Of a stretch of DNA of 64,000 nucleotides, positions 30,780-46,715 are shown one piece after another. A model generated the notes under the pieces. That model was not told where the DNA came from. It was given only the letters and a program-made list of their open reading frames with translations, and did no database searches. The position numbers and the translations under genes are program-made. The stretch is from Nitrospirota bacterium. GTDB lineage: Bacteria; Nitrospirota; Nitrospiria; Nitrospirales; Nitrospiraceae. Each line of letters begins with the position of its first letter. The first letter of the stretch is position 1. Location of the stretch: positions 62,001-126,000 of the forward strand of contig JBFMAX010000007.1 of assembly GCA_040755395.1 (NCBI GenBank). Reading direction: 5' to 3'.

Positions 30780-30986
30780 TGGCTCATGGGCGGCATCATC
30801 TGCGCCGTCGGCCGCTAAGACGGTCTCGCCACGTCCGTCGTGTGGAGATCTCATGCGTGCCATGAAGCGAGGAAGGGCGAGAGGTTCCCCGTATTCGATC
30901 GGCATGGGGATATCCGGCCAATCTTCAAAGACGCACACGGGCTGTACCCTGGTCGGGATGTCCGGCAGTCAAGCGGGAGAGGGCGA

Positions 30987-32207
30987 GTGAAACGCGTGTT
31001 CGCTGGACCCGGTTCACGAACGGCTGTGGCGTTGTTGCTGTGGGGGGCTCTGTCTGGATGTCTCTCTCCCGTCGCCATGCACCGCGCGGTGTTGGAATAC
31101 GACCACACAGTCAGCCAGGTCGAATCCGAAATGTTGCTGCTGAATATCGCCAGGGCCAGGCAAGGCCTCCCCGTTCATTTCACCGCGGTGTCCAATGTTG
31201 CCGCCACGTTCGACTTCCGTACGAACGCCGGTGTAGGGGCCCAACTGTTCAACAGGGGCGGGACGGACATCACAAGGAATTTTTATACGCTGAATCTGGG
31301 TGCGAGCGTAGCCGAGAACCCGACGGTGAGCATTATTCCCATCCAGGGCGAGGAGTTTACACGCCGCATCCTGACGCCAATGGACGAGACCAAGTTCGAA
31401 TTTCTCATCAGTCAAGGGGTCGAGCCCGCGATCGTGTTGCGGCTCATGGCGCGCGGGATCGGTATCGAGCAAGACGGCAAGAGGACCTTTCTTCTGAACT
31501 TGCCGCATCGCCCCGAGGAGTACGCGGAATTCCGCCGGCGGGTCCTGCATCTGTCCGCTCTGAATCTCGCTCGGCAGCTTCATGTCGGACCACTCGAACA
31601 CGAGGAGCACTGGCCGTTACCCCCAGACCATCCGTTGACCGCACAGGCGTTGGACAAGGGCTACCGATGGATCACGAATGAAGCGGACGGCAGGCCGATC
31701 CTGAGCAAGACGGTCGTCGGGCGTATGGCGATCAGCAACTACGATCCGGCCAAGCTGCCTAATCATGAACGCCGGCGGCTTCACGAGACGGCTTCTCGCT
31801 ATCCGCGCAATTACGTGTTTGTCGACATTCGTCCGGGGTTCCCCGGCGGGGATTACCCGTGGCGAGGCCAGATCAAGCTTCGAAGCTTCAGCGCGATTCT
31901 CGGGTTCGTCGCGCGGGGGATCGCGGAGGAGCCGGAATTTGCAGTGGACCAGGATCAGCGCACCGGTCCGGTCTTGCGCAACCCGGTCTCGACGTTGAAA
32001 ATCGTCGAGACGACAACCAGACCTCGGCACGCCGCCTTTGCCGTGGAACTGCGCGCGCGATGGTACAGCGTCGGGGCGCATGATGACGGTGAAGAACCGT
32101 TGCGTACGTGGAACCGGGAAGCCTTCAGCCTGCTGCAGCAGTTGTTCCAAATGACCGTCACCGATGTCGGGCGGATTCCGACGCTCCCGATCACGATCGC
32201 CAAATAA
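30987..32207 (+). CDS. Outer-membrane-type lipoprotein of unknown function
   Basis: 406 residues from GTG at 30987 (VKRVFAGPG), chosen because it gives a basic N-region, a hydrophobic core and lipobox LSGC near residue 25; GGGAGAGGGCGA precedes it. The mature N-terminus has MHRAVLEYDHTVSQVESEMLLLNIARAR and VHFTAVSNVAATFDF, a combination I recall from hypothetical proteins of several Gram-negative phyla but cannot tie to a function. The rest alternates beta and helical stretches with no known catalytic motif. Placed after the MFS/BON operon with a 207-base gap. Confidence 0.75.
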   Translation: MKRVFAGPGSRTAVALLLWGALSGCLSPVAMHRAVLEYDHTVSQVESEMLLLNIARARQGLPVHFTAVSNVAATFDFRTNAGVGAQLFNRGGTDITRNFYTLNLGASVAENPTVSIIPIQGEEFTRRILTPMDETKFEFLISQGVEPAIVLRLMARGIGIEQDGKRTFLLNLPHRPEEYAEFRRRVLHLSALNLARQLHVGPLEHEEHWPLPPDHPLTAQALDKGYRWITNEADGRPILSKTVVGRMAISNYDPAKLPNHERRRLHETASRYPRNYVFVDIRPGFPGGDYPWRGQIKLRSFSAILGFVARGIAEEPEFAVDQDQRTGPVLRNPVSTLKIVETTTRPRHAAFAVELRARWYSVGAHDDGEEPLRTWNREAFSLLQQLFQMTVTDVGRIPTLPITIAK

Positions 32208-32502: not shown

Positions 32503-32531
32503 TTGACAGGATAAGCGACCAAGTGTATAAA
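32503..32531 (+). promoter_or_regulatory. Near-consensus sigma-70 promoter of the TetR operon
   Basis: -35 TTGACA (32503-32508), exactly 17 bases, -10 TATAAA (32526-32531). This is the best promoter match I found in the window. The first gene starts at 32639, leaving a leader of about 100 bases. Confidence 0.85.
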
Positions 32532-32532
32532 T

Positions 32533-32582
32533 ATGACCAATAGGTCATAAATGAGTTATAGGTCACTATTGGATAATTGGTC
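32533..32582. promoter_or_regulatory. Palindromic operator cluster overlapping the transcription start
   Basis: ATGACCAATAGGTCAT (32533-32548) is a palindrome with 6-base arms and a 4-base centre, placed right after the -10 box. Further copies of the half-site words follow: AGGTCA at 32560-32565, CTATTGG at 32566-32572 and ATTGGTC at 32576-32582. This size and placement suit a TetR-type repressor, and a tetR-family gene is the fifth gene of the operon downstream, so autorepression is likely but inferred. Confidence 0.65.
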
Positions 32583-32638
32583 TAACACAATGCCGGTGCT
32601 TGCTCGGCGTCTTGTCGTTCAGAGAGGAGGGAGGACTC

Positions 32639-33127
32639 ATGAAGGATGCAATGCTTCGCGCGGAAGCGCTCGATCGGACATGGTTCGCCTTCGACGACGA
32701 AGGAAAGGCTCTTTGGCTCGTTGATCAGTCCGGCAGGAAAGCGTGTCCCATGGCTTGGGAGTCTGTGCAGGACAAGGCAGAGTTCCGGGTAGAGACCCGT
32801 GTACAGGTTCGCTATCGATCACAAGACGGTGCATGGCGGGAAGGTCGGGCAGCTCGGGCTTCCCGAGAGGGGGTCTTTATCGAGGGGGCCGACTTGTTGC
32901 CTGTCGGAGCGGAAGTCGAGCTGAGTTTTGCACCGTCTGATCGTCCGGCAGAGCGGATGAAGGGAGTAGGAACCGTGGCATGGGTCTGCCGCAAGCCCGA
33001 TCAGTTCGGATACGCGCGCGGGATGGGTGTGCGATTCCTGGAAATCATGCCCGTGCGGTGGCTCCAGCACCGCGAGGCAGTCCAGTTGGCGGGTCAAGAG
33101 CAACAGGAAGAAAGGGGCGCGGCATGA
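32639..33127 (+). CDS. PilZ-like domain protein, first gene of the TetR operon
   Basis: 162 residues; ATG at 32639 after AGAGAGGAGGGAGG. Residues about 1-50 form a short charged domain; from residue 52 the pattern is PilZ-like: VETRVQVRYRS, RAARASREGVFIEGADLLPVGAEVELSFAP and VGTVAWVCRKPDQFGYARGMGVRFLEI. The SxxG part of the box is present but the first acidic/Asn residue is Ala, so c-di-GMP binding is uncertain. Stop overlaps the next start by 4 bases. Confidence 0.72.
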   Translation: MKDAMLRAEALDRTWFAFDDEGKALWLVDQSGRKACPMAWESVQDKAEFRVETRVQVRYRSQDGAWREGRAARASREGVFIEGADLLPVGAEVELSFAPSDRPAERMKGVGTVAWVCRKPDQFGYARGMGVRFLEIMPVRWLQHREAVQLAGQEQQEERGAA

Positions 33128-33432
33128 AGGCCATCATGGAAAGAACGGAATCGGTGCTAGGGCGGGTCGGCCGCGTCCACAGGAAAAGTTGGCCGGCCCT
33201 GAGGGAGTTGGAAGGCAAGCCCTGCCGCCTGTGCGGGTGGCGGCGGTACTACCTGGTCTTTCGTTCCTGTACGACCGGGCCGAACGGCACGTTGGAAGCG
33301 AAGTGTAGCCGCTGCGATGAACGGAGAGAGTTAATGTCTGGAGAGTTCGAACATGATGTGGACCGGACTCCACTAAGGAATTCAAAAAGGAATTCGAACG
33401 GGTTGGGCAATCACGACGCTCATGCCAGTTAA
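33124..33432 (+). CDS. Small zinc-ribbon-like protein
   Basis: 102 residues, starting in the ATGA overlap with the preceding gene. Two CxxC knuckles, CRLCGW near residue 34 and CSRCDE near residue 62, separated by about 25 residues, fit a zinc ribbon. The N-terminus is basic and helical, the C-terminus polar. I do not recognise a specific family; nucleic-acid or protein contact is possible. Confidence 0.65.
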   Translation: MKAIMERTESVLGRVGRVHRKSWPALRELEGKPCRLCGWRRYYLVFRSCTTGPNGTLEAKCSRCDERRELMSGEFEHDVDRTPLRNSKRNSNGLGNHDAHAS

Positions 33433-33452
33433 CGCCAGATCGGAAAGGGGGG

Positions 33453-33686
33453 ATGATCATGAACAACCGAACCAGATACGTTGCGGCCGGCGGCGTGACG
33501 TTCGTCACCGGGCTGTTGGTCGGCGTCGGAGCAGGCCTGTTACTGGCCCCGCAATCGGGCGCGAGAACACGTCGACAACTGCGATCGCTGGTGGAAGACG
33601 TGAGTGAACGGGCCGGGTGCATGGCGATCGATGCGAGAGAAGCTCTCGGACGGGTCGTCGAACGCGGGAAACGCTTGGTGGCCTGA
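33453..33686 (+). CDS. YtxH-like small membrane protein
   Basis: 77 residues with one Gly-rich membrane segment (about residues 12-31: GGVTFVTGLLVGVGAGLLLA) followed by APQSGARTRRQLRSLVEDV, the classic YtxH 'APxSGxxTR' junction, and a charged helical tail. YtxH proteins are small stress-associated membrane proteins in Bacillus and many other bacteria with no defined activity. ATG at 33453 or 33459; AAAGGGGGG lies just upstream. Confidence 0.8.
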   Translation: MIMNNRTRYVAAGGVTFVTGLLVGVGAGLLLAPQSGARTRRQLRSLVEDVSERAGCMAIDAREALGRVVERGKRLVA

Positions 33687-33783
33687 GGGCTGCAGCGGGA
33701 AAGCCGACCTGAACTCATCAGGGCGGTCTGTGTCCGGATGAGAGGCCCTCATCCGGACAAGGCCCTATTCATGGGAGGACACG

Positions 33784-33993
33784 ATGCGATGCACACGATG
33801 TCGAGGCTGGATGACGAGGGATTATTTCACCGATCTTCTGGACGACCGAGGCGAACTGGACTTCCAGGGATGGCGGTGCGTCAATTGCGGAGCCGTCGTC
33901 GATCCTGTTATCCTGCGCCATCGAGAAATCGGAGAACTTGAGCCGCTGAAGTCGAAGCGTCGGTGGCGGCTGTACATGACGGCATGTTCATGA
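33784..33993 (+). CDS. Small zinc-ribbon protein
   Basis: 69 residues with CTRCRG near residue 3 and CVNCGA near residue 32, a compact two-knuckle zinc ribbon with TRDYFTDLLDDRGELDFQGWR between. The remainder is basic. Shine-Dalgarno GGGAGGA seven bases upstream. The stop overlaps the TetR start by 4 bases (ATGA), so the two are translationally coupled and the ribbon may modulate the repressor. Confidence 0.75.
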   Translation: MRCTRCRGWMTRDYFTDLLDDRGELDFQGWRCVNCGAVVDPVILRHREIGELEPLKSKRRWRLYMTACS

Positions 33994-34625
33994 AAGCGGA
34001 ACCGGAGGCCCGGAGCATGGCGCCCGCGGCATCGTCACGGGTGGAGCGTCGGAAAGCGCGCACGCGGCAGGCTCTGCTGGATGTCGCCCTGGCGCTTTTC
34101 TCCGAGAAAGGCATCTATTGGACGAAAATCGAGGATATCACCGAGCGCGCCGATATCGGCAAGGGGACCTTTTATAAGTACTTCGAGACCAAAGAGGCGC
34201 TTCTCCAGGCCCTGCTCCAGCAAGGCTTAGACCTGCTCCTCATGAAAACGAAAGAAGCCTCGCGCGGCGCCAAACCCGGACCGAAGCTCTTCAGCAAGAT
34301 CATCGCAGCGAGGTTGGATTTTTTCCTGGAACATCCGGAATACCTGTTGTTGTTCCATCAGGTCCGGGGATTGCTTCAGCTCACGACGGAATCGGCCAAG
34401 GACCTGCGCGCGGTCTATGACGAGCATTTGGATCGCCTCGGGAATCTGCTGCGCCCCGCGCTGAACGGCAAAGGCGCCACCAACCGCATGCTCGCCACGG
34501 CCCTGGCGGCGTACACCTCCGGACTGTTGACCTATTATCTGTTGTTCGACAAGACAGGGGATTTGAAACGGCGTCGCGGAGAGATTCAGGCCCTGCTCGA
34601 GCGAAGCCTTCAGGCGTTGATGTAA
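33990..34625 (+). CDS. TetR/AcrR-family transcriptional repressor
   Basis: 211 residues from the ATG that overlaps the previous stop. The N-terminal helix-turn-helix is clear: RRKARTRQALLDVALALFSEKGIYWTKIEDITERADIGKGTFYKYFETKEALLQALLQ (about residues 20-75). The all-helical C-terminal ligand/dimer domain includes FFLEHPEYLLLFHQVRG. It is the fifth gene of an operon whose promoter carries a suitable palindrome, suggesting it represses its own operon until a ligand binds. Ligand unknown. Confidence 0.92.
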   Translation: MKAEPEARSMAPAASSRVERRKARTRQALLDVALALFSEKGIYWTKIEDITERADIGKGTFYKYFETKEALLQALLQQGLDLLLMKTKEASRGAKPGPKLFSKIIAARLDFFLEHPEYLLLFHQVRGLLQLTTESAKDLRAVYDEHLDRLGNLLRPALNGKGATNRMLATALAAYTSGLLTYYLLFDKTGDLKRRRGEIQALLERSLQALM

Positions 34626-34702
34626 CGAACACCGGGCGGTTCCGATCCGGAGGACGAAGCGCCAGAGAGCCGGTCCGCACGCGCAGCCGGGAGGCGATCG
34701 CT

Positions 34703-34945
34703 ATGAATGGCTCAGAGTCTCAGTCCCGACAGACCCCTGAAGGCGTTCCGCTTGAAGAGCCATCGCGCGGCATGTGGCTGGGCGGAGAGGCGCATGTGGG
34801 TTCGCTCTTTTCTTCTCCCGGGCGTCGGCGGTCCCTGGCGTTTCCCGACGGGCTGGGCCCGCTTGCTCTCGCCACTGTGTTCATCGCGGGTCTTGCGCTC
34901 GGCGTCAGCCTGACCGCGCTGCACCCTTGCTCCTCAAAGCGCTAG
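34703..34945 (+). CDS. Small membrane protein, 3' end formed by an inserted repeat
   Basis: 80 residues. Polar Ser/Gln/Arg-rich N-terminal half, then one hydrophobic segment near residues 52-70 (LALATVFIAGLALGVSLTAL) and a short HPCSSKR tail. The stop codon TAG (34943-34945) lies inside the left terminal repeat of the MITE-like element, so the original C-terminus may have been longer. Last gene of the TetR operon, 77 bases after tetR. Function unknown. Confidence 0.5.
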   Translation: MNGSESQSRQTPEGVPLEEPSRGMWLGGEAHVGSLFSSPGRRRSLAFPDGLGPLALATVFIAGLALGVSLTALHPCSSKR

Positions 34946-35128
34946 CCCGCATTATTCACGAGGATTCGTGACGAAACCGCGCAGACGCGTCGTGAGACGG
35001 GCAAGCGCAGCCACGAGGGAGGGAAGCGTACTTGAAACAGTACGTTGACCGACTGAGTGGCGAGCACGCCCGTCGCAACAGCGTATCCGCGGTTGCAGTA
35101 GAAGCCTTCGTGAATAATGCGGGCTAGC
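34941..35128. mobile_element. MITE-like element, 188 bp with perfect 21-bp terminal inverted repeats
   Basis: 34941-34961 (GCTAGCCCGCATTATTCACGA) is the exact reverse complement of 35108-35128. The interior of about 146 bases has no gene. GCTAGC at each end is itself a palindrome, so a CTAG or GCTAGC target duplication with a shorter 15-17-bp repeat is an equally valid reading. Size and structure match non-autonomous insertion elements mobilised by a transposase elsewhere. Confidence 0.75.
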
Positions 35129-39161: not shown

Positions 39162-40424
39162 TTACGGTCGGTCCCGGCGTCGGCCCTTTCTGAATTCCTC
39201 CGATCGACCCGGCCATGTGACGTTGTGGCCGGCAACGTGTTCTCGCTGGAGAGGCCTGCTGGCCGGACGGGGATGGGGTCCGGCGGCGCTCCCTTCAGCT
39301 CGAGGAACCGGTTGTCCCAAGAGGTGTTCAATCGCCCGGATGTGCCGGGTATCCTCGATTGTGACGAAGCTTGTCGCGCGCCCGATCGCCTTCATCCGGC
39401 CGGTGCGCCCGATCCGGTGCACATAGTCTTCCGGCGTGTGGGGCAGGTCGTAATTGATGACATGGCCGATATGGGCCACGTCCAGACCGCGGGCTGCGAT
39501 GTCGGTCGCGACGAGAATCCGATACCGTCCGCGACGGAACCCTTCCAAGGCTGTGCGGCGTTGGGACAACCGGCGATCCCCATGCAGCACGGCCACTTGA
39601 TGGCCGACTTGTTCCAAGGTACGCCCCAAGCGATCGGCGCGATGTTTGGTCCTGGTAAAGACCAAGACGGATTCGTCTTGGTCTTTGAGCAAGGACAGAA
39701 GGAGCGGCGTCTTCTCTTCGGGCGTCGTGTGGTGCAGCGTTTGCGCCACGCCCGCGGCCGGGGTCGCCGACCTGGCGACCATCACACGCTCCGGGGTTCT
39801 CAGGGACATTCGCGCGAGATCACTCAGGTCACCGGGCATGGTGGCGGAAAACAGCAGGCTTTGCCGCTGCTCCGGCAGCGCATCGAGAATCTGGTTCAAC
39901 TGCGGCGCAAATCCCATATCGAGCATCCGATCCGCTTCGTCCAGTACCACGATCTGGAGATGCGAGAGCTGGACCGTCCCGTTCCACAGGTGGTCCAACA
40001 GCCGGCCGGGCGTCGCCACGAGAATATCGGGGAGCTGGCGCAGACCGCGCACCTGGGCCTGCATGTCGCTGCCGCCGACGATGGGAGCGGCGAAAATCCG
40101 GCTGGACCGGCCGAGCCGATCCGAGGTCGCCTGAATCTGAAAGGCCAGTTCCCGGGTCGGCGCCAAGATCAAGCCGCGTGGGTGGCCCTTGGGCCCGTCG
40201 GCCAGCCGCGCGATCATCGGCACGACAAACGCCGCGGTCTTTCCTGTGCCGGTTTGCGCGCAGCCCAACACGTCTCGCCCCCGCAACGCCGGCGGAATGG
40301 CCCGCGCCTGGATCGGAGTCGGTTCGGTCAAGCCCGCGCTGCGCAGGTCCCGCAGGAGCGGGGCAGGCAACCCGAGGGCATCAAAGGTAAGCGGAGGAGA
40401 AGGAAGCTGAGCAGAGGTGGACAT
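39162..40424 (-). CDS. DEAD-box RNA helicase (RhlE-like)
   Basis: 420 residues with all superfamily 2 motifs: Q motif PTPIQARAIPPAL, AQTGTGKT (I), APTRELAFQ (Ia), TPGRLLDHL (Ib), VLDEADRMLD (II, D-E-A-D), SAT (III), then VLVFTRTKHRAD (IV), ATDIAARGLD (V) and HRIGRTGRM (VI). The C-terminal tail is short and basic. RhlE-type helicases help ribosome assembly and RNA turnover. ATG at 40424. Confidence 0.94.
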   Translation of the reverse strand: MSTSAQLPSPPLTFDALGLPAPLLRDLRSAGLTEPTPIQARAIPPALRGRDVLGCAQTGTGKTAAFVVPMIARLADGPKGHPRGLILAPTRELAFQIQATSDRLGRSSRIFAAPIVGGSDMQAQVRGLRQLPDILVATPGRLLDHLWNGTVQLSHLQIVVLDEADRMLDMGFAPQLNQILDALPEQRQSLLFSATMPGDLSDLARMSLRTPERVMVARSATPAAGVAQTLHHTTPEEKTPLLLSLLKDQDESVLVFTRTKHRADRLGRTLEQVGHQVAVLHGDRRLSQRRTALEGFRRGRYRILVATDIAARGLDVAHIGHVINYDLPHTPEDYVHRIGRTGRMKAIGRATSFVTIEDTRHIRAIEHLLGQPVPRAEGSAAGPHPRPASRPLQREHVAGHNVTWPGRSEEFRKGRRRDRP

Positions 40425-40629
40425 AGAAGTATCCTTTTCTGGTTGGATCGCATGAGCACGGGATCAGAAAATCGAGGGAAGCAGAACCGGAAGGGAATCC
40501 GCTCCGGAGAGGATCTGAGCGCGATGCGATCGCGGGGTCCGGAATCTTGAAGGCGTCACGAGCGCCGGACCGTTTCGACCATGACGAAGCCTACCCTACA
40601 GGAGAATCGTCCCCATGTCAAATGCTTCG

Positions 40630-40734
40630 CTATGTCAGCCGTGCAAGGGGGCATGATTGGCTGAGCTGCCAGACGTTATACATGACGATCCCGGCCACGG
40701 CGGCACCCATGATAATGAACAAGCCGACCGGCAC
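40630..40734 (-). CDS. Possible 34-residue membrane peptide
   Basis: Starts with GTG and reads MPVGLFIIMGAAVAGIVMYN, then VWQLSQSCPLARLT. About 22 residues form a credible transmembrane helix. There is no clear Shine-Dalgarno and the in-frame start is uncertain, so this is only a candidate. Confidence 0.25.
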   Translation of the reverse strand: MPVGLFIIMGAAVAGIVMYNVWQLSQSCPLARLT

Positions 40735-40857
40735 GCTCTCTTGAGCGGTTCGCCGGATGCCGATTCCGCGTGACGGTCTGAGGGGAGCCGGATACGCAGC
40801 GCTGGGTGACAGGAGGTTTCTCGCCTATCCGGCTCACTCCATGCGCGATTCTCGTCC

Positions 40858-40886
40858 TTGACACGGTTTCTCTATAGGCCTAGCCT
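40858..40886 (+). promoter_or_regulatory. Possible promoter of the PilZ gene
   Basis: -35 TTGACA (40858-40863), 17-base spacer, weak -10 TAGCCT (40881-40886). Confidence 0.35.
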
Positions 40887-41003
40887 TGCCGTGTTCGGGT
40901 TTCTCTGTTTGGGTACTGACTTCCGCAACACCGGCCTGGCTTGCCATTCTTCGATGAGGACAAGGTCGGCTGAACGTTGCTGACGGTCGGGTTACGGCGC
41001 AAG

Positions 41004-41324
41004 ATGCTCATGGGCGAACGAGAGAATCCCCGTTTCGACGTGCAATGGCCGGTGTCCTTTTCCGGGCCGGGTGTGGCCGGAGGCGGATTGGTCTCCTGTG
41101 TTTCGGTCAGCGGGTGCACCGTTGTCAGTGAGGAACCCGTGACACCGGGGACGTTCCTCTCGTTACATATCCATTTGCCTGAGCAGTATGTGCCGCTCGC
41201 GATCGATGTGGCCGAGGTCCGTTGGGCGACGGGCACGGAATTCGGCGTGGAGTTCAGAACCCTGCGCGCGCAGGAACAAGAGCGGCTGCGCCGCGTCGTG
41301 GATGTACTCGGACGATCCCATTAG
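41004..41324 (+). CDS. PilZ-domain protein
   Basis: 106 residues from ATG at 41004 (ATG at 41010 equally possible). ENPRFDVQWPVSFSG supplies a reduced Arg box, SCVSVSGCTVVS holds S-x-x-G with Cys-Val before the Ser instead of the usual Asp/Asn, and VAEVRWATGTEFGVEFRTL is the closing strand pair shared with the other PilZ proteins here. c-di-GMP binding is therefore uncertain. Next downstream is msrA. Confidence 0.8.
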   Translation: MLMGERENPRFDVQWPVSFSGPGVAGGGLVSCVSVSGCTVVSEEPVTPGTFLSLHIHLPEQYVPLAIDVAEVRWATGTEFGVEFRTLRAQEQERLRRVVDVLGRSH

Positions 41325-41405
41325 CGGCGTGGCCGGTTCTCGGAAAAGGCTTGGAGGCTCGTCGTAAGACTCGATCCGAGCGGCCGACATGTTTCGGAGG
41401 TGAGA

Positions 41406-41963
41406 ATGGTTGACGGACCGGTTGGGTCAGGAATGGAAATCGCCACGCTGGCCGGTGGATGTTTTTGGTGTCTGGAAGCGGTGTACGACCAACTGAAAGG
41501 CGTCGCGTCGGTCGAGTCCGGCTACATCGGGGGAAGCGTGTCGAATCCCACCTACGAGGCGGTATGCACGGGCCGCACCGGCCATGCCGAGGCGGTGCAG
41601 ATCACGTTTGACCCACAGGTCGTGCCGTATCGCGACCTGCTCGAGATCTTCTTCGCCGTTCACGATCCGACCACGCTCAACCGCCAGGGTAACGATGTCG
41701 GCACGCAATACCGGTCCGCGATCTTCTACCATTCACCTGATCAGAAAGCGATCGCCGAAGACGTGATCGCGACGCTGACCAAAGAGAAGGTGTTCGATCG
41801 TCCCGTCGTCACCGAGGTCGTGCCGGCCTCGACCTTTTACATAGCCGAGGCCTACCATCAGGAGTATTTCGTCCGCAACCCGTTGCAAGGCTATTGTCAG
41901 TACGTGATCGGGCCGAAGGTCGCCAAGTTCCGCCGGCAGTTCGCCGCCAAGCTGAAAGGGTAA
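41406..41963 (+). CDS. msrA: Peptide methionine sulfoxide reductase A
   Basis: 185 residues; ATG at 41406 follows GGAGGTGAGA. The catalytic motif is [11 protein letters not shown], with the nucleophile Cys near residue 19. [27 protein letters not shown] and YHSPDQ are diagnostic, and a further Cys in LQGYCQYVI near residue 163 is the probable resolving residue. The enzyme reduces methionine-S-sulfoxide with thioredoxin. No signal peptide, so cytosolic. Confidence 0.96.
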
Positions 41964-41992
41964 TACATCGCTCGGCGCGCGCCTCAGGTCGC

Positions 41993-44623: not shown

Positions 44624-46546
44624 TCAGGCGGTGGATTTGAGGAAAAGCGCCGAGAGCGGCGGCAGGATGAGCGTAAGCGAGTAGGGACGACCGTGGAGCG
44701 GCGACGGATCGGCCTCCGTCCCGCCGAGATTCCCCATCCCGCTTCCGCCGTACTCCCGTGCGTCGCTGTTCAGCAGTTCTTTCCAGAATCCCCCGCGCGG
44801 CGCGCCGATCCGATAGTGGACTCGCGGCACCGGCGTGAAATTGCACACGACCAGGATCAGCTCGTCGGTGGACGTCCCGCGCCGCAAGAGGCTGATGACG
44901 CTGGCGTCCGCATCGTGGCAGTCGATCCACTCGAAGCCGGCCGGATCGAAGTCCCGCTCGTGGAGCGCCGGCTCACGCCGGTACACGCCGTTCAGGTCCG
45001 CCACCCATTTTTGCAATCCCTGATGGGACGCGTACTGAAGCAGGTGCCAATCCAGGCTCCCGTCGTGCGCCCACTCGCGCCACTGGCCGAATTCGCCGCC
45101 CATGAACAGGAGCTTCTTGGCGGCTTGGGCGAACATGTAGCCGAACAGCAGACGCAGGTTGGCGAACTTCTGCCAGTCGTCGCCCGCCATTCTGCCGAGC
45201 AGCGAGCCTTTCCCATACACGACTTCGTCGTGTGAGAGCGGGAGGACGAAGTTTTCATGGAACGCATAGAGCATGCGGAAGGTGAGATTGTTGTGCTGAT
45301 ACTTCCGGTAGATCGGGTCCAGGGCCATGTACTCGAGCGTATCGTGCATCCAGCCCATGTCCCATTTCATGCCGAAGCCGAGTCCGCCGGCGTAGGTCGG
45401 GCGCGACACCGCCGGCCATGCGGTCGATTCCTCCGCGTACGTCTGGACGTCCGGATGACGCCGATACACCTCTTCGTTCAGACGGCGGAGAAACCTGATC
45501 GCGTCCAGGTTTTCCCGGCCGCCGTATGGATTGGGAATCCATTCGCCCGGGTTCCGTGAATAGTCCAGATACAGCATGGACGCCACGGCATCCACACGGA
45601 GCCCGTCGACGTGATATTTCTCCAGCCAGAAGAGCGCGCTGCTGATCAGGAAGCTCCTGACTTCATTGCGACCGTAGTTGAAGATGCAGGTGTTCCAATC
45701 GGGATGAAAACCTTGGCGCGGATCGGCGTGTTCGTAGAGATGGCTGCCGTCGAAATAGACGAGTCCGTGTTCGTCGGTCGGGAAGTGCGACGGCACCCAG
45801 TCGAGGATGACGCCGATACCGTGTCGGTGCAATTCGTCGATCAGGTACATGAGGTCCTGCGGCGTCCCGAAGCAACCGGACGGCGCGAAATAGCCGGTGG
45901 TCTGGTAGCCCCAAGAACCGAAAAACGGGTGATCCATCAGCGGCAGGAACTCGACGTGCGTGAACCCCATTCGCTGGACGTAGTCGGCGAGCTTGACGGC
46001 CGCTTCGCGATAACTCAAAGAGCGGTTGCCCTCTTCGGGAATGCGCATCCAGGATCCAAGATGCACTTCATAGATGCTGATCGGCGCGTCGAAGGCGTTC
46101 CGGCGCGCTCTGGTCTGCAGCCATTCATCGTCATGCCAGACGTAGTCGAGGTCCCAGATGATCGAGGCGGTCTTGGGCGGGACTTCGTTGAACCGTGAGA
46201 AGGGGTCCGCCTTGTCGACCCGATAACCATGGTGCCGGGAGCGGATATGGTACTTGTACAGCGTGCCTTTGCCGACGTGCTGGATAAAGCCTTCCCAGAT
46301 ACCGGATCCGTCGCGCAGATGCAGGAAGTGACTGTCTTGGTTCCAGCCGTTGAAGTTCCCGATAACCGAAACCCGCTCCGCATCCGGGGCCCAGACCGCA
46401 AAATACGTCCCGTCTATGCCGTCGACAACGGCGGGGTGCGCGCCGAGCTTGTCGTAGAGGTGGAAGTGCGTGCCTTCGTTGAAGAGGTACAAGTCGTCAT
46501 CGGCGAGGAGCGTGAAGGCGGCGGCTGTTCGCTGTTGATGGCTCAC
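44624..46546 (-). CDS. glgB: 1,4-alpha-glucan branching enzyme
   Basis: 640 residues from GTG at 46546 (VSHQQRTAA) with GAGG eight bases upstream; the frame runs on upstream but the added part is Arg-rich and unlike GlgB. N-terminal CBM48 ([22 protein letters not shown]), then a GH13 barrel: [24 protein letters not shown] with the nucleophile Asp, [11 protein letters not shown] with the acid Glu and [16 protein letters not shown] with the third Asp. It makes alpha-1,6 branches in glycogen. No glgA, glgC or glgP is adjacent. Confidence 0.95.
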
Positions 46547-46715
46547 GGATCGACCTCGTGCTTCGAATGTAATGTGATGTGAGGCGGTCTTGGCATATCG
46601 TAGCCTATCGTCCCGGCCGTCCATCGTCAACCTCGATGTTTTCTTTCGCCGCTTCCGCGGCCGCCACCGCTTCTCTGCGCGCGTTCGGTGTGGAGACCGG
46701 GACTGGGCGCTAGTG

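Follow-up and report, generated by a model that had tools for sequence, protein, structure and literature searches.

A putative TetR autorepressor with a tandem-dyad operator in an operon related to Nitrospira glycogen and trehalose gene clusters

An operon of six genes in a Nitrospirota genome is preceded by a tandem array of inverted repeats that, among related bacteria, occurs wherever the operon's TetR-family protein is encoded. We consider it fairly probable that the operon represses itself and forms the leader cassette of an alpha-glucan/trehalose module of the Nitrospira type, uncoupled from the glgC-treY genes in the genome studied here. The operon lies within the window, by which we mean the whole 64,000-nucleotide stretch of DNA analysed (GCA_040755395.1, contig JBFMAX010000007.1, positions 62,001 to 126,000). 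The family to which this genome belongs also holds Nitrospira MAGs, and its source is therefore a Nitrospira-family bacterium. The operon is not an isolated invention: the same genes, predicted repressor and DNA switch recur in relatives. Nitrospira are major nitrite oxidisers and comammox bacteria, and they make trehalose and glycogen. A search of the open-access literature found no account of transcriptional control of either process in Nitrospira. The presence of a conserved, defined operator and a tetR gene in front of glgC-treY in the cultured species N. moscoviensis makes such control directly testable, and would thereby connect the metabolism of storage glucan or osmolytes with zinc ribbons, a degenerate PilZ protein, YtxH and a WLGxEAxV membrane protein.

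Promoter, operator and genes of the operon

Direct reading of the sequence gives a promoter with TTGACA at 32503-32508, a 17-bp spacer and TATAAA at 32526-32531, followed by six co-directional genes. The original prediction of a near-consensus promoter with a palindrome behind it, and of six genes with two ATGA overlaps, is borne out; both overlaps are real, at 33124-33127 (PilZ-like/zinc ribbon 1) and 33990-33993 (zinc ribbon 2/TetR), and Pfam identifies the PilZ, YtxH and TetR genes. A consensus promoter scan of the window gave no match here, for the sole reason that the scanner requires a T at the last position of the -10 box. The features of the operon are:

32503..32531, + strand: sigma-70-type promoter, TTGACA-N17-TATAAA (sequence; the -35 TTGAC also occurs in relatives)
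32534..32583, + strand: operator array of three dyads, TGACCAATAGGTCA / TGAGTTATAGGTCA / TGGATAATTGGTCT, with an 18-bp period, over the predicted transcription start (sequence and comparison)
32639..33127, + strand: PilZ-like protein, 162 aa (PF07238, E 1.9e-7; alignment)
33124..33432, + strand: predicted zinc-ribbon protein 1 (CxxCG...CxxC), 102 aa, ATGA overlap with the PilZ gene (sequence, alignment)
33453..33686, + strand: YtxH-family small membrane protein, 77 aa (PF12732, E 2.3e-12)
33729..33759, + strand: hairpin between the YtxH and zinc ribbon 2 genes, near-perfect 12-bp stem without a T-run (folding)
33784..33993, + strand: predicted zinc-ribbon protein 2 (MxCxRC...WRCxxCG), 69 aa (alignment, homologue search)
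33990..34625, + strand: TetR-family repressor, 211 aa, ATGA overlap with zinc ribbon 2 (PF00440, E 2.7e-15; relatives)
34703..34945, + strand: small membrane protein with a WLGGEAxV motif, 80 aa (alignment)

The palindrome ATGACCAATAGGTCAT occupies 32533-32548, directly 3' of TATAAA, and the predicted transcription start, at about 32538, falls inside the first dyad. The 14-bp dyads start at 32534, 32552 and 32570, in exact 18-bp steps, two adjacent dyads spanning 32 bp. Dyad 2 (TGAGTTATAGGTCA, 32552-32565) matches TGAC...GTCA at 7 of 8 positions and dyad 3 (TGGATAATTGGTCT, 32570-32583) at 5 of 8; among random window 14-mers, about 0.04% match at 7 or more positions and about 3% at 5 or more. 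The three further half-site copies first noted behind the palindrome are therefore present, but are better described as two more full dyads.

The window operator is the only convincing copy in its genome. ATGACC-N4-GGTCAT occurs once in 4.1 Mb, a profile trained without the window ranked the window site top in the 64 kb (39.7 bits), with the next five best matches all overlapping it, and a tandem-dyad profile search of the whole genome found no second site. A wider regulon was considered and rejected, the operator core occurring 9 times against 7 for a control pattern. Also discarded as targets were an identical 14-mer on contig C5, which sits within an epimerase gene, and two core copies on contig C3, which flank an unrelated TetR gene. 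The latter gene (G000:C3, about 216611-217308; L137) has TGACCG-N2-CGGTCA palindromes on either side and is likely to be a second autoregulated TetR of this genome.

By its HTH domain and all-helical predicted fold, the product of 33990-34625 is classed as a TetR-family repressor. Its AlphaFold model (pLDDT 86.7) matches TetR-family folds in the PDB, the nearest by Foldseek being FadR-type acyl-CoA regulators (TM 0.71, 17% identity), and efflux regulators are among its best matches by sequence in the PDB. The best NCBIfam match is RutR, a membership we rejected at 52.9 bits against an equivalog cut-off of 368 bits.

Both the PilZ-like protein (31.8 bits against a gathering score of 22.5) and the YtxH protein (47.6 against 37.5) score above their Pfam thresholds, which places the former in the PilZ fold and the latter in the YtxH family. 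In alignments of the PilZ-like family, the RxxxR and [D/N]xSxxG motifs are not conserved; the window protein has an RVETR that its relatives do not share, and RASREG in place of the second motif. Because these signature motifs are not kept, the protein probably does not bind c-di-GMP. The same observation weighs against the idea of a c-di-GMP responsive operon, in which the PilZ protein would read this nucleotide and act on membrane partners. The significance of the PilZ domain match and a diguanylate cyclase gene 3' of the TetR gene in one distant locus (L160) speak for it, but several cassettes with no detected PilZ gene retain the remainder, and we regard it as very improbable.

Neither zinc ribbon has a Pfam family above cut-off; the CxxC pairs of both are kept in alignments of relatives, consistent with their prediction as zinc ribbons. 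Homologues of zinc ribbon 2 occur in every one of the 78 family genomes, as many as 22 matches being found in a single genome; the protein belongs to a large lineage-specific paralogue group with no Pfam entry above cut-off. The two strongest matches to zinc ribbon 1 other than the window's own (G026, G007) were rejected as cassette members, as they lie outside any cassette.

The sixth open reading frame has a weak coding bias, but is probably a real gene, because its homologues share the WLGxEAxV motif and a C-terminal hydrophobic stretch. Such homologues are found 3' of treY in L120 and L126. Directly 3' of the operon is an element of about 190 bp (34941-35128) with 48-nt inverted ends that are 77% complementary; about 50 sequences in the genome match it in full or in part. 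The sixth gene takes its stop codon from this element. Lastly, the whole gap between the YtxH and zinc ribbon 2 genes folds at a predicted -43.5 kcal/mol (z -3.0). Its hairpin is possibly an RNA stability element; no equivalent was seen in the corresponding gaps of relatives.

Pairing of TetR and operator across genomes

Relatives of this TetR are encoded in 25 distinct loci, window counted, gathered from whole genomes of the family and named genome contigs (24 Nitrospira-type and one from Acidobacteria). In every one of the 25, the dyad core TGACY-N4-RGTCA precedes the leading gene of the TetR operon, and TTGAC stands at the -35 position 5' of the core in 23. In nearly all loci the operator lies directly behind the -10 box and a degenerate second dyad follows 18 bp further on; some, including the window, have a third. 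Across the 78 family genomes, the operator profile had matches in all nine that encode this TetR and in none of the 69 that do not (Fisher p about 5e-12, relatedness ignored). It should be noted that this profile was partly built from positive sites, which makes the positives partly circular and leaves the negatives unaffected, and that strict filters were applied.

The pairing extends to another family of the order, where an OmpA gene adjoins it (L157). The same operator and a TetR of 38% identity also occur in an Acidobacteria MAG (L160, 6423-11202), followed by genes for a diguanylate cyclase, a DUF389 protein and a chloride channel. TetR is the sole gene common to all operator loci, three of which (L156, L157 and L160) are without the remaining cassette. 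G090, L148 and L150 have a second operator, which lies near an OmpA-type gene in those cases where its surroundings can be seen; the regulon can therefore be slightly larger in some species.

Comparative footprinting thus gives strong support to the original prediction of TetR control. Since the operator tracks TetR (25 of 25 loci; nine genomes versus 69) and the window site ranks first, TetR is almost certainly a local autorepressor, and we are highly confident that it acts on the operator array. Many TetR proteins act in trans, and the dyads could in principle belong to another regulator, with tetR a mere passenger. The perfect co-occurrence of operator and TetR in the 78 genomes, their persistence across phyla beside differing neighbours and the status of TetR as the one gene in every operator locus make this scarcely credible.

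Glycogen and trehalose genes around the cassette

Gene order is conserved in other genomes, and the genes are not scattered in relatives. The order PilZ-zinc ribbon 1-YtxH-zinc ribbon 2-TetR is kept in G063 (L116), with a CBM48 gene added 5' of tetR; most other TetR loci read YtxH-zinc ribbon 2-(TatA, nucleotidyltransferase)-CBM48-TetR. The CBM48 protein matches the AMPK/isoamylase glycogen-binding module of Pfam at 5e-11 to 2e-12. In most relatives glgC (PF00483, 4e-64) and then treY stand 3' of tetR, so that the description of the operon as self-contained does not hold for them. The GDE domain in relatives' loci was also assigned by Pfam; treX, treZ, treS and treY are named by similarity, length and position, with no per-gene family search.

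In L126, L120 and L158, the gaps are 15-60 bp between tetR and glgC and range from an overlap to 22 bp between glgC and treY, which suggests a single transcript. Other TetR loci have longer gaps, or OmpA or phasin-like genes in between. N. moscoviensis (L158) has treX (on the opposite strand), followed by treZ, zinc ribbon 1, YtxH, zinc ribbon 2, CBM48, TetR, glgC, treY, then treS and treT.

Cassettes without TetR, consisting of zinc ribbon 1 with YtxH and/or zinc ribbon 2 and no operator, were found in G099, G032, G068 and G080. They adjoin genes for glycogen debranching enzyme (L123, L124, L186), TreT (L123) or OtsA (L125, L186), and three of them come after BON-MFS or MFS-BON-MFS genes, as the window's cassette does. 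The TetR-free cassettes share an inverted repeat, ACAT-N2-TGTYC-N5-GGAYAAxATGT, 5' of zinc ribbon 1 (L123:3945, L124:4219, L125:4404, L186:7621). The repeat lies about 48 bp 3' of the debranching gene in L123 and L186, and may be a terminator or a different operator.

These neighbourhoods make it quite probable that the cassette is linked to alpha-glucan/trehalose metabolism in relatives, gene neighbourhood being no proof of common function. TetR is present in only nine of the 78 family genomes, and the family's trehalose synthesis is therefore independent of it. Distant relatives of this TetR have other neighbours, OmpA in the case of L157 and a diguanylate cyclase in that of L160, and the regulator may accordingly sense something unrelated to sugars.

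An inducible envelope or stress response, the function first suggested for the operon, fits these neighbourhoods less well than a storage and compatible-solute module. TetR would on that account sense a membrane-active compound or lipid and induce protective small proteins, the glycogen linkage being incidental. The operon does encode YtxH and a second small membrane protein, the FadR-type fold and the efflux regulators among the sequence matches of TetR are in keeping with such a ligand, and OmpA genes follow or share the operator in L148, L150, L151, L153 and L157. However, the operon has no efflux pump, chaperone or protease, and the tight linkage to CBM48, glgC, treY, GDE, otsA and treT recurs with or without TetR. 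We judge this alternative unlikely.

In the window, the genes 5' of the operon run GT4-MFS-BON-MFS, then the two features below, then the operon:

30825..30947, + strand: remnant of a glycogen debranching enzyme (GDE) gene, N-terminus, 41 codons (tblastn 44% over 41 aa, E 7e-4)
30987..32207, + strand: 406-aa protein (homologues of 50-52% identity; no Pfam match above cut-off)

The remnant is 1.6 kb upstream of the promoter, and an intact GDE gene takes the equivalent place, after the same MFS/BON genes, in L123, L124 and L186. In L118, L121, L151 and L153, a homologue of the 406-aa protein is encoded upstream of the TetR cassette and divergently from it. The genome's own glgC-treY-treS-treT genes are on contig C21, in an order close to that of N. 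moscoviensis but with no cassette between treZ and glgC, and a profile search found no operator at this locus. The simplest reading is that, by a rearrangement, a TetR-type cassette was parted from its enzymes and came to lie at a debranching-type locus. In trees of YtxH and zinc ribbon 2, the window sequences fall near TetR-free cassettes (for YtxH, with L126) at a support of about 0.9; as the proteins have only 70 aa, such trees cannot settle the history of the cassette.

Two further loci were noted in this genome. A probable glycogen branching enzyme gene, judged by its appearance and weak CBM48/TreY similarity, lies 10 kb downstream of the operon (44624-46624, - strand). On contig C18 (G000:C18, about 39888-41970; L138), a PilZ paralogue with 44% identity to the operon's adjoins an OmpA-type gene that in L118 stands between tetR and glgC; L138 would be another dispersed piece of the alpha-glucan/trehalose module.

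Biosynthetic sugar-enzyme genes are absent from the window operon, which is thus best seen as a relative of the trehalose/glycogen operons rather than a complete member, and its function in this genome is inferred from relatives for that reason. We propose that two to three of the tandem dyads over the transcription start, directly behind the -10 box, are occupied by TetR dimers, which would block RNA polymerase and shut off their own mRNA, and that a ligand would release TetR from the array and de-repress the operon. In relatives, the de-repressed transcript would also yield the glycogen-binding CBM48 protein, ADP-glucose synthesis (glgC) and maltooligosyl-trehalose synthesis (treY), and ligand release could thereby raise storage glucan and/or trehalose. 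To the degenerate PilZ protein, the two zinc ribbons and YtxH we assign a putative accessory role, exerted at the membrane or on the glucan. With the loss of glgC-treY coupling, TetR would be left controlling just the accessory proteins and itself; we regard the operon as a probable switch for carbon storage or osmoprotection, detached from its enzymes in this genome.

A more specific version is that Nitrospira-type nitrifiers have a dedicated TetR switch, ligand-sensing and with a tandem-dyad operator, which controls carbon storage and trehalose synthesis jointly with membrane, zinc-ribbon and PilZ-fold accessory proteins acting on glycogen or on the trehalose enzymes; in the genome studied here, these proteins would then act in trans on a trehalose locus from which they are separated. 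This we hold to be possible, if rather doubtful. Conversely, the operon could be a decaying leftover, its enzymes lost, its last gene truncated by a MITE and little function remaining. The upstream GDE remnant, the location of glgC-treY elsewhere and the stop codon supplied by the repeat element would fit such decay. Against it, no damage is seen in the promoter, the operator or any of the six reading frames, and there are more operator dyads than in most relatives, a sign that the array is probably under selection or was recently active; we find outright decay improbable.

Comparison with known systems

A search of open-access papers found no description of this TetR, its operator or the cassette, in agreement with the original view that no operon with this set had been described. 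The YtxH protein resembles its family in scoring above the PF12732 cut-off, and has zinc-ribbon, PilZ-like and TetR proteins as its partners in the window. The B. subtilis acyl-CoA regulator FadR (3whb/3whc) is the closest PDB fold of TetR (TM about 0.7), but the two share 17% identity and the window operon has no fatty-acid genes.

The core of the RutR box, TTGACCA-N2-TGGTCAA, resembles TGACC-N4-GGTCA. RutR itself, the pyrimidine regulator of E. coli, has a 16-bp palindromic box (PMC10891134); it differs in that there are no rut genes at the window operon and in a weaker structural match than that to FadR.

QacR, CgmR and CprB are TetR repressors whose long operators are bound by a pair of dimers (PMC4150764), such QacR-type operators being about 22-32 bp long. 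Tandem dyads near the transcription start, a TetR_N HTH and autoregulation (in CprB) are common to these systems and, as predicted from sequence, to ours; the differences are the operator sequence, the 18-bp array of two to three dyads and the lack of efflux or antibiotic target genes.

The trehalose pathway is conserved in most Nitrospirales (PMC12342949). The window locus differs from the trehalose/glycogen clusters of Nitrospira in being without the enzymes, and is tied to them by the cassette that stands between treZ and glgC-treY in N. moscoviensis.
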